Assembly: GCA_030684695.1 (NCBI GenBank)
Contig: JAUXXX010000020.1
Coordinates: 31,933-95,932, forward strand
Reading direction: 5' to 3'
Source: a bacterium
GTDB lineage: Bacteria; Bacillota_I; Bacilli_A; Izemoplasmatales; Hujiaoplasmataceae
DNA length: 64,000 bases
The notes under the pieces are model-generated. The model made no database searches and was not told the origin of the DNA. It saw nothing but the letters and a program-made list of their open reading frames with translations. Made by a program: the position numbers and the translations under genes. Of the stretch, positions 1 through 3,480 are shown piece after piece. How positions within the stretch are numbered: the stretch's first letter is position 1; the number at the start of each line of letters is the position of its first letter.

Positions 1-777
1 TATTCCTGCTCTTCTTCCACCCGCAACCAAACTCACAGCAGTCGCTTCTCCAAGAGTACGACCAATTCCTAAAATAGCAGCGGTAAATATTCCTGATTTC
101 GCAGAAGCAAGCACGACTTTAAAATTGGTTTGGGTGTTACTAGCACCAAGGGCAAGCGACCCATGTTCAATGGTTTTATCCACCGAACGAATCGCTACTT
201 CAGAAATTGCTGTAATCGTTGGTATGGTCATTAATGCTAACACCAATACTACTGAAATAATCGAATTACCACCTTTTGATTGATATCCAAACAAGGCACT
301 GACATCATACACCACTTGCAAGATGATCCCAGCTCCAAACAACCCATAGACAATCGATGGAATCGCTGCTAGTGTTTCGATGACGGTTCTTAGAATCTTA
401 GCAAGTGGTTTTGGGGCAACTTTGGCAATAAACAGTGCCGTTAACACCCCGATTGGAAAACTAACAAGTAGTGATAATAAGGCAATAAAGAGTGTAGATA
501 CAATGATAAAGCCAACACTATACAGATTGGATGCAAACGTCGCACCAATCAACCAAACATCTCCTGTTAAAAACGACCACAAGTTCACCGATCCTAATCC
601 TTGATTATCTGTCACAAAAGGTCTTATTCCTTGAACAAAGATAATTCCTACTACGATAAAGATAAACGAAGCGGATAACAAAGCCGTTCCTAGAAAAATA
701 TGTTGCGTAATTTTATCGGTGATTCGATTTTTCTTCGTACTGCGCATTTGTTCTTTCCATTTTAGTAGTTCTTCCAT
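1..777 (-). CDS. pstC: Phosphate ABC transporter permease PstC (partial, 3' end outside window)
   Basis: This is a membrane subunit of the PstSCAB high-affinity phosphate importer. The frame opens at the ATG at 777 behind GAGGAGA and stays open to base 1, so 259 codons are visible and the C-terminus is missing. Seen: a short charged N-terminus, a first membrane segment at about residues 28-50, an external loop, then several membrane segments with LAAIPSIVYGLFG near 136-148. An EAA-type cytoplasmic loop (ALGASNTQTNF, near 209-219) and GIGRTLGEATAV near 237-248 follow; the last is typical of PstC-type permeases. The pstS homologue lies directly upstream on the same strand. PstC is preferred over PstA because it follows pstS directly and has a long N-terminus. 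Confidence 0.9.
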   Translation of the reverse strand, partial: MEELLKWKEQMRSTKKNRITDKITQHIFLGTALLSASFIFIVVGIIFVQGIRPFVTDNQGLGSVNLWSFLTGDVWLIGATFASNLYSVGFIIVSTLFIALLSLLVSFPIGVLTALFIAKVAPKPLAKILRTVIETLAAIPSIVYGLFGAGIILQVVYDVSALFGYQSKGGNSIISVVLVLALMTIPTITAISEVAIRSVDKTIEHGSLALGASNTQTNFKVVLASAKSGIFTAAILGIGRTLGEATAVSLVAGGRRAGI

Positions 778-838: not shown

Positions 839-1789
839 TTAACGATTTATTAATGCGTTCCACGTACGGTATGTGCCATTGTACATGTTCTTAAGGTCAT
901 CTGCTGTGACATTAGATACTGGGTTATTCAAATGAACGATAGCGACAATGGCATCCCATGCTAATTGACCACGAATCGACGCCGCAACTGTTAATTCCGC
1001 TCCACGGAAGAATCTGGATGAGAAGCCGATGTCTTTTCCTACGGATGTATCCTTGATAGCAGGATCGTTGGTACGTTTGTATGCATCACTGGATCCTGTA
1101 TGATCATGCTCTGCGGAGAAGTTTCCACATTTTGGGGTAAATGCTTTGGTAAGTGCTTCCGCTACTTTTTGAATGGAATCAGATCCACCAATGCGTAGAA
1201 CAACACCACTGTTATTTTGATTACAAACCGCATGATTTCCTTTTACTTGGTCCCATGTTTGAGTAGAAGGTAGTGGAATCGCTCCCGCATTGTTAATGAT
1301 ATCTCCACCATCGCTCGTTGCTAAGAAAGCGATGAATGCTTGAACGATTTGTTCTACTGTAGTGGATGGATAATCTCCTGCTGGACGAATCATCCACATA
1401 AAGGGACGTTTTAATCCATAGGTATCATTGATTACGTTGGCTTCTGTCGGCGCAACTCCATTGAAATGCAATCCTTTTACAGTGCTGTTTACGCTTGATA
1501 ACGATACATAACCTACTCCGTACTCATCAATCGATAATGCGTTTAAAATGGCGGTATTGTCTTTAATTAGAAATCCTGTTACTAATACAGAATCGGATGT
1601 TGCGGCTTCCGCAAAACCAATGCCTTCCATGAATCCTGTTCTTGTCCCAGAAGTGGTATCTCTGGTATAAACGGTGATGTTCTTTGACCCATCGTATGTT
1701 ACTAAAGTGGTTGCTGATGTTGAAGTTTGTGAACAAGCAGCGAGTGTCAATGTTAATAAACCTACTAATGCAATTAAAACTTTTTTCAT
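839..1789 (-). CDS. pstS: Phosphate-binding lipoprotein PstS, circularly permuted domain order
   Basis: This is a periplasmic-type phosphate-binding lipoprotein of 316 aa. A signal peptide ends in LTLAAC (lipobox Cys about residue 19). All PstS landmarks are present but in swapped order. The part normally in the second half comes first: ITVYTRDTTSGTR near residues 38-50 (the R..SGT phosphate loop), GVGYVSL, and the VEQIVQAFIAFL helix. The part normally first comes last: LRIGGSDSIQKVAEALTKAF near 198-217, DHTGSSD, DIGFSSR, and NPVSNVTADDLKNMYNG...TWNAL at the C-terminus. In canonical PstS the GS(T/D)S and NxxVxxLT..W parts precede the SGT loop. The frame is intact from signal peptide to stop, so this is not a frameshift. 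The gene starts the pst operon, behind a PHO-box-like promoter. Confidence 0.9.
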   Translation of the reverse strand: MKKVLIALVGLLTLTLAACSQTSTSATTLVTYDGSKNITVYTRDTTSGTRTGFMEGIGFAEAATSDSVLVTGFLIKDNTAILNALSIDEYGVGYVSLSSVNSTVKGLHFNGVAPTEANVINDTYGLKRPFMWMIRPAGDYPSTTVEQIVQAFIAFLATSDGGDIINNAGAIPLPSTQTWDQVKGNHAVCNQNNSGVVLRIGGSDSIQKVAEALTKAFTPKCGNFSAEHDHTGSSDAYKRTNDPAIKDTSVGKDIGFSSRFFRGAELTVAASIRGQLAWDAIVAIVHLNNPVSNVTADDLKNMYNGTYRTWNALINR

Positions 1790-1923: not shown

Positions 1924-3141
1924 TTACTTTACAAGTCTTTTTTCGCCATCTAGCTGTGTAATTGGCAAGATGTTTTGTGTAACTTCTAAGGTTCCTAAGT
2001 AATTACCTTGTGGATCTTTTATCGCAAAATAACGAATATGGATAAAATTACCCTTCATTCGAATCCAAAAATCCTCATGATCTTTTTTTCCGGATTTGAA
2101 ATCATTAAGTATTTGCTCCACCACATGAACACTTTGTGGTGGATGACACATCGATACGTTTCGTCCAAGAATTGTTTTTGGACGATCAAAGATTCGTTCT
2201 TTTCCTTGGGTAAAGTATTTGACGTTATCGTCTTTATCCACAAACGTCATATCAAAAGGAACGGAATTGAAAATGGCATTAATCTCTGTTCCTGACAACG
2301 TACCAGCATCAAAGGTAAATTCTCCATTGCTGGTATTTGTTAACTCTTCGGTTTGTTGTTGAGAGTCTTCTTTTTTTGCCCACGAGGGGACGTTTTGAAT
2401 CAGAGTATATGGATATTCTGGCATCGATTGATCTATTTTGATCCATTCATAATAACTAAATGTTTCTAACATCAAAGGAATCAAAATATTATTTTCCTTA
2501 AAAATCATATCTTTGACCTTTTGAATCGCTGATTGAATTTTTAAAACAATTTCTGTGGGTTGTATCTGAATGCTTGATAACAAAGAAACACACTCTTTGA
2601 TTTCTTTACGAATCTCATCGTCCACACCCCACATGACTTTAGGAGGTGCTGTAATTCCATGTTTTTCTAAATATGGAAACATCAGATACTCTTTTTTGCT
2701 GTAGTGATGATTGATTTCCGTGAGTCGATCTAGTCCAACGCGTAACATTAAGTGAGACATGTTATCATGTTTCGCTTCGAAAGAAACTAAATACGGCTGA
2801 ATTTCTTCTGAAATCAATAACTCGATTGCGTTGTTTTCAAGGACCAATATGTTTGCCGGATGTCCTGGTAATTTCGTAAAATCTTTTTGCGCATGTATTT
2901 CGCTGATGGATCCTTCAAATACACTGGCATGCACATCACATAAGCGTTGCACATCTTCGATAGGAAGTCCTTCTTTTACCAACGCTTGTTCAATACTTGA
3001 AATCTCGGTTGTGGAGACGTCTTTGAAATGTTTTTGAAACTCGACTTTTACTTCATCTACGGTTTTTCCTTGATGAAGTGATTTAATTAACTCTTTTAAC
3101 AACGTTTTTCTTGAATCGCTGTTATTGATAAACTCACTCAT
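1924..3141 (-). CDS. DUF438 / hemerythrin-like / PAS-domain protein
   Basis: A cytosolic 405-aa protein with three modules. DUF438 covers about residues 5-80. A hemerythrin-like HHE region covers about 85-225, with GHP near 93, INHHYSKKE near 145 and FKENNILIPL near 215 as likely metal-ligand segments. A PAS domain covers about 285-395 (GTEINAIFNSVPFDMTFVD then the PAS core). The architecture matches DUF438-family proteins of anaerobic Firmicutes, which are thought to sense oxygen or NO through a di-iron site; the ligand here is not known. The start is taken at the ATG at 3141, because GGAGG lies 7 nt upstream and it forms an ATGA overlap with the stop of the preceding DUF1858 gene. A GTG or ATG further upstream would extend into that gene. 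A strong terminator follows. Confidence 0.85.
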   Translation of the reverse strand: MSEFINNSDSRKTLLKELIKSLHQGKTVDEVKVEFQKHFKDVSTTEISSIEQALVKEGLPIEDVQRLCDVHASVFEGSISEIHAQKDFTKLPGHPANILVLENNAIELLISEEIQPYLVSFEAKHDNMSHLMLRVGLDRLTEINHHYSKKEYLMFPYLEKHGITAPPKVMWGVDDEIRKEIKECVSLLSSIQIQPTEIVLKIQSAIQKVKDMIFKENNILIPLMLETFSYYEWIKIDQSMPEYPYTLIQNVPSWAKKEDSQQQTEELTNTSNGEFTFDAGTLSGTEINAIFNSVPFDMTFVDKDDNVKYFTQGKERIFDRPKTILGRNVSMCHPPQSVHVVEQILNDFKSGKKDHEDFWIRMKGNFIHIRYFAIKDPQGNYLGTLEVTQNILPITQLDGEKRLVK

Positions 3142-3371
3142 AATGATTCCTCCCATTGAAAACCATGAATCTGCAATACTTCAATGATTTTATCCATTGA
3201 AATTTGTTTCATGATTGCCCCTTTTTTTAACGTCATGATTCGCCCCACTGTTTGTAGTTGGAGTGGGTTTACGATGTTTGAAAACCCAAGTGACACTAGT
3301 ATATCGACAACTTCTGGGTATGTTTGTACAATCGAATAGACCGATTGATTGGCATTAATTATTTTACTCAT
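3138..3371 (-). CDS. DUF1858 domain protein
   Basis: A 77-aa protein that is essentially one DUF1858 domain (INANQSVYSIVQTYPEVVDILVSLGF). This family is found alone or fused to hemerythrin/DUF438 and hybrid-cluster-related proteins in anaerobes, and its biochemical function is unassigned. The start at 3371 is chosen because AGGAGG lies 7 nt upstream; an in-frame upstream start would pass through that ribosome-binding site. The stop overlaps the next start by 4 bp (ATGA), so the two proteins are translationally coupled and probably work together, as the fused versions in other species suggest. An extended -10 (TGATACGAT) and a TTGGTT -35 lie upstream. Confidence 0.8.
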   Translation of the reverse strand: MSKIINANQSVYSIVQTYPEVVDILVSLGFSNIVNPLQLQTVGRIMTLKKGAIMKQISMDKIIEVLQIHGFQWEESL

Positions 3372-3480
3372 TGGGATACCTCCTAACGTTATCGTATCAC
3401 AGTTTCCATCAGTAACCAAACGATGTCATAAGAAATCGTGCGTGCGTGTGCACGCGAGCTATAAATCAGCACTTTACACA

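Follow-up and report, generated by a model that had tools for sequence, protein, structure and literature searches.

The pstS gene of the 64,000-nucleotide stretch of DNA analysed here (the window) very probably encodes an ordinary PstS phosphate receptor of the Pst ABC importer whose chain is circularly permuted; we infer its part in phosphate binding, transport and regulation. The permutation itself is real, and the evidence supports well that it is a common arrangement already present in a solved structure, representing an existing, under-described kind of PstS. An ORF check of the window confirmed the 316-aa frame at 839–1789 (minus strand), with an ATG start, in which the landmarks of the family occur in swapped order (Table 1). 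The first half of the protein carries ITVYTRDTTSGTR (residues 38–50), GVGYVSL (91–97) and C-terminal-type helices (about 143–167), and the second half carries GGSDS (201–205), DIGFSSR (253–259) and then NPVSNVTADDLKNMYNG, followed by the TWNAL end. All of the landmarks listed in the initial annotation were found at the relative positions claimed for them.

Table 1 Features of the permuted pstS gene, the adjoining pstC and tandem loci in other genomes
Feature	Position	Strand	Basis
pstS, circularly permuted phosphate-binding lipoprotein	839..1789	-	316-aa ORF, swapped-order family matches, model pLDDT 92.8
Lipoprotein signal peptide, residues 1–19, lipobox Cys19	1733..1789	-	Sequence MKKVLIALVGLLTLTLAAC; Cys19 invariant in 35/35 relatives
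Canonical PstS C-terminal half, now first, residues 35–176	1262..1687	-	TIGR02136 35–172 = model 161–294; half-profile match 35–176
Phosphate loop RDTTSGTR, residues 43–50	1640..1663	-	Tree alignment, 51 permuted rows: R43, S47 and G48 fully conserved, T49 almost fully
Linker joining old C-terminus to old N-terminus, residues 177–194	1208..1261	-	Gap between half-profile matches
Canonical PstS N-terminal half, now last, residues 195–312	854..1207	-	PF12849 195–312 = model 7–125
GGSDS ligand loop, residues 201–205	1175..1189	-	No variation at S203 or S205 among permuted rows
IGFSSR motif, residues 254–259 (canonical DIG..SR)	1013..1030	-	S258 fully conserved in permuted and canonical rows, R259 almost fully
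pstC, next operon gene, cut by the window start	1..777	-	TIGR02138; in L216 the gene is complete (320 aa) and scores above the cut-off
Tandem permuted PstS	L150:3449-5224	-	
Tandem permuted PstS	L151:2592-4436	+	
Tandem permuted PstS	L152:2796-5513	+	
Tandem permuted PstS	L153:2316-4211	+	
Tandem permuted PstS	L154:3003-4928	-	
Tandem permuted PstS	L155:2321-4276	+	

Searching the protein against family profiles with hmmscan gave a two-part match to TIGR02136 (E = 5e-27), whose better part aligned residues 35–172 to positions 161–294 of the 295-position model, and a match to Pfam PF12849 (PBP_like_2, E = 1e-16) aligning residues 195–312 to positions 7–125 of 267. When the halves were reordered as N-half followed by C-half, both matches became continuous and their scores rose, from 94.8 to 106.5 bits for TIGR02136 (model 42–294) and from 61.8 to 77.1 bits for PF12849 (model 9–265). 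In a sequence scan of the PDB, the canonical PstS structures 4q8r, 4gd5, 1twy and 4n13 were each aligned only as two swapped stretches. The swapped-half match is far beyond chance: since profile and PDB matches are swapped alike, and become continuous with higher scores once the halves are reordered, the observation of a circularly permuted PstS homologue made in the initial annotation is confirmed. Canonical TIGR02136 proteins (4q8r, 4gd5, 1twy) share both halves, the phosphate-loop motifs and the operon partners with the window protein, but run from N-half to C-half in one stretch where the latter matches in two.

Both halves of the family profile were matched, and the PF12849 score exceeded the gathering score of 27 bits. 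The curated TIGR02136 cut-off (206.6 bits), however, was missed by the protein in either order, while a canonical-order protein from the same class scored 230.6 bits. A score that stays below the cut-off even after reordering indicates that the Acholeplasma-type protein has diverged in sequence in addition to being permuted; its fold, motifs and operon make it PstS-like, yet it lies outside the curated model. Family models score the permuted form poorly, so that a survey of PstS relying on curated models would miss it, and two named examples, the Monoglobus and Treponema plasmid genes described below, carry no annotation more specific than substrate-binding domain-containing protein.

An AlphaFold model of the window protein (35 sequences in the input) reached a pLDDT of 92.8 and a pTM of 0.81. 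Foldseek keeps chain order, and an end-to-end match is therefore possible only for a permuted target. Its sole full-length match in the PDB was 4h1x (E = 1e-22, TM-score 0.83 by target length), whereas the canonical 1twy was matched over 156 columns only. From the model and the full-length match to 4h1x, the protein is predicted with high confidence to retain the PstS fold, a point for which a structure prediction had been proposed. Entry 4h1x is the phosphate-binding protein PstS 2 of Streptococcus pneumoniae (SP_2084 in the PDB title, released 2012-10-17), and its sequence is collinear with the window protein, residues 35–312 aligning to 8–263 in phmmer. Like the window protein, it has the same fold with the C-half first and is opened before the R..SGT strand at identical cut points: the chain start, IEVISRENGSGTR, is the same strand as ITVYTRDTTSGTR and the chain end is the same W motif. 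Unlike the window protein, to which it is ~22% identical in the structural alignment, it has a shorter linker, is without the cysteine pair described below, and is placed apart from the window protein's clade in the tree. The order seen in 4h1x is probably natural rather than that of a construct, since it gives an uninterrupted alignment both with the Monoglobus gene (47.5% identity) and with the Treponema gene (43.7%).

The interpretation in the initial annotation is thus supported in part: the reading as a permuted PstS stands, but the suggestion that such a protein was unknown finds no support, since the same permutation is present in 4h1x and in a widespread group of proteins. No paper describing PstS as permuted, or dealing with the permutation of 4h1x, was found in the open-access literature. 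In the PstS fold, the old termini lie in one lobe and the new termini in the other. With old and new termini in opposite lobes, the permuted receptor would carry its lipid anchor on the lobe opposite to the usual one. Permuted PstS is a natural test of whether binding-protein topology, and the lobe that is lipid-anchored, matters to the importer. Among binding proteins of ABC transporters, natural permutation has its precedent in MglB-2 (Tp0684) of Treponema pallidum, a circularly permuted lipoprotein for which Gram-positive relatives were reported by its authors, who also raised anchoring as a possible reason for the topology of this glucose-binding lipoprotein (PMC4990184). MglB-2 differs from the window protein in belonging to another family (type I, sugar-binding) and in its cut point.

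Could the order be an artefact of two normal pstS halves wrongly joined by mis-assembly or a frameshift? The window's genome is a draft of 129 contigs, but the gene is a single open frame within a 95.9-kb contig, and the same order recurs in proteins 41–75% identical from dozens of independent assemblies, including the closed chromosomes CP017948 and CP076020 as well as complete plasmids. These independent assemblies rule out the artefact, which had been named as a finding that would undo the claim and to which we assign a negligible probability.

The pstS gene heads the order pstS-pstC-pstA-pstB-phoU, followed by a PhoB-like response regulator and a kinase whose best match was the PnpS model, the regulator and kinase matches both falling below curated cut-offs. 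Upstream of pstS, likewise on the minus strand, the window holds genes for a DUF438-hemerythrin-PAS protein (1924–3156) and a DUF1858 protein (3138–3419). Elsewhere in the same genome, contig C95 (L045:2147-3361, minus strand) encodes a membrane-anchored protein of 404 aa whose PstS-like halves follow the canonical order; apart from this protein, no other pstS was found in the genome.

The phosphate-contacting loops (GGSxS, GS, DIGxxSR and RxxxSGT) were conserved in the permuted rows of the alignment and nearly the same in canonical rows. Among permuted rows, R43, S47, G48, S203, S205, S233 and S258 were invariant, and T49 and R259 nearly so. Position 253 is mostly Asp in canonical PstS, and Asp or His in most permuted proteins. 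This substitution, together with the divergence from canonical PstS that leaves the protein below the TIGR02136 cut-off, could be taken to mean that the permuted protein now binds a ligand other than phosphate (another oxyanion) or acts mainly as a sensor. We consider such a change of function improbable, given the seven invariant residues and the position of the gene at the head of a complete pst-phoU operon in a genome with no other pstS but the membrane-anchored PstS-like protein.

As a phosphate receptor, the protein would have its old N- and C-termini joined by the linker of ~18 residues and its chain opened just before the strand leading into the R..SGT phosphate loop. The folded receptor would be anchored via the lipid on Cys19, close its two lobes around inorganic phosphate, contacting it through the usual loops, and pass it to PstC/PstA with PstB as the power source, a hand-over that the gene neighbours suggest. 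The same neighbourhood points to PhoU and the PhoB/PnpS-type two-component pair as most likely tuning expression to phosphate supply.

The homology search for relatives of the same order covered 101 whole genomes, 100 of them from relatives, and returned a match in 50, the window's own included. Apart from the latter, 47 were single matches spanning the full length or close to it (32–75% identity), and two were canonical and partial. Of the 80 loci retained in a scan of named genomes, one had two fused units and the remaining 79 a single permuted one; they came from Acholeplasma laidlawii, A. oculi, A. granularum, Peloplasma, Paracholeplasma, Izemoplasma, Erysipelotrichaceae and others, closed chromosomes included. 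Across the loci examined in the class, the permuted form was present in at least 13 families and the canonical form in six (f8, f11, f15, f18, f19 and f21), two of which hold both; ORF counts in these class-wide loci are redundant and serve as a picture only. Swapped halves are the normal state of a textbook transport receptor across a large part of one bacterial class. Outside the class, the permuted order adjoins pstC-pstA-pstB-phoU on complete plasmids of Monoglobus pectinilyticus (Clostridia) and Treponema saccharophilum (pTS2). Searching at the DNA level for the phosphate loop with a degenerate pattern gave no match, the pattern being too strict. Two adjacent canonical pstS genes were seen ahead of pstC on plasmid pILYOP01 of Ilyobacter polytropus (L213:1-814 and 1066-1899).

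A tree built from the two halves joined in canonical order split the permuted rows into three positions: a large clade that includes the window protein, another that includes 4h1x, Treponema and Monoglobus, and a single row on a long branch. This amounts to three changes on the tree, with none of 200 bootstrap trees giving one, and would fit a permuted order that arose more than once, e.g. separately in the line of 4h1x and in that of Acholeplasma/Izemoplasma. We regard repeated origin as possible but the less probable case: constraining the permuted rows to one group lowers the log-likelihood by only 6.5 units, so that the AU test does not reject a single origin (p-AU = 0.27), and both lines share their cut points, for which a single origin is a simple explanation, though structure could also dictate them. 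The likely origin would be the standard route, an in-frame tandem duplication (N-C-N-C) with subsequent loss of the outer halves, probably long before the present species.

In six genomes, from three families, an ORF of 591–905 aa with one signal peptide encodes fused permuted units, two in five of the genomes and three in the other, the units being 75–98% identical within a protein. These fused in-frame duplications are the kind of step thought to give circular permutation, but of the already permuted form. It is conceivable, if rather unlikely, that PstS was permuted more than once via tandem duplication at a favoured cut point and that the fused chains represent a living duplication step, in which the middle N-C pair could fold canonically and the two topologies interconvert in evolution. 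The predicted structure of a tandem two-unit protein had a pLDDT of 48.6, too low to inform on the pairing of its halves.

The linker measured 10–28 residues in permuted relatives, with a median of 18. Cys189, within the linker (window 1208–1261), and Cys221, in the N-half (1127–1129), were both present in 30 of 35 relatives and one of them in two; this co-occurrence in the sequences suggests a disulfide possibly stapling the new junction.
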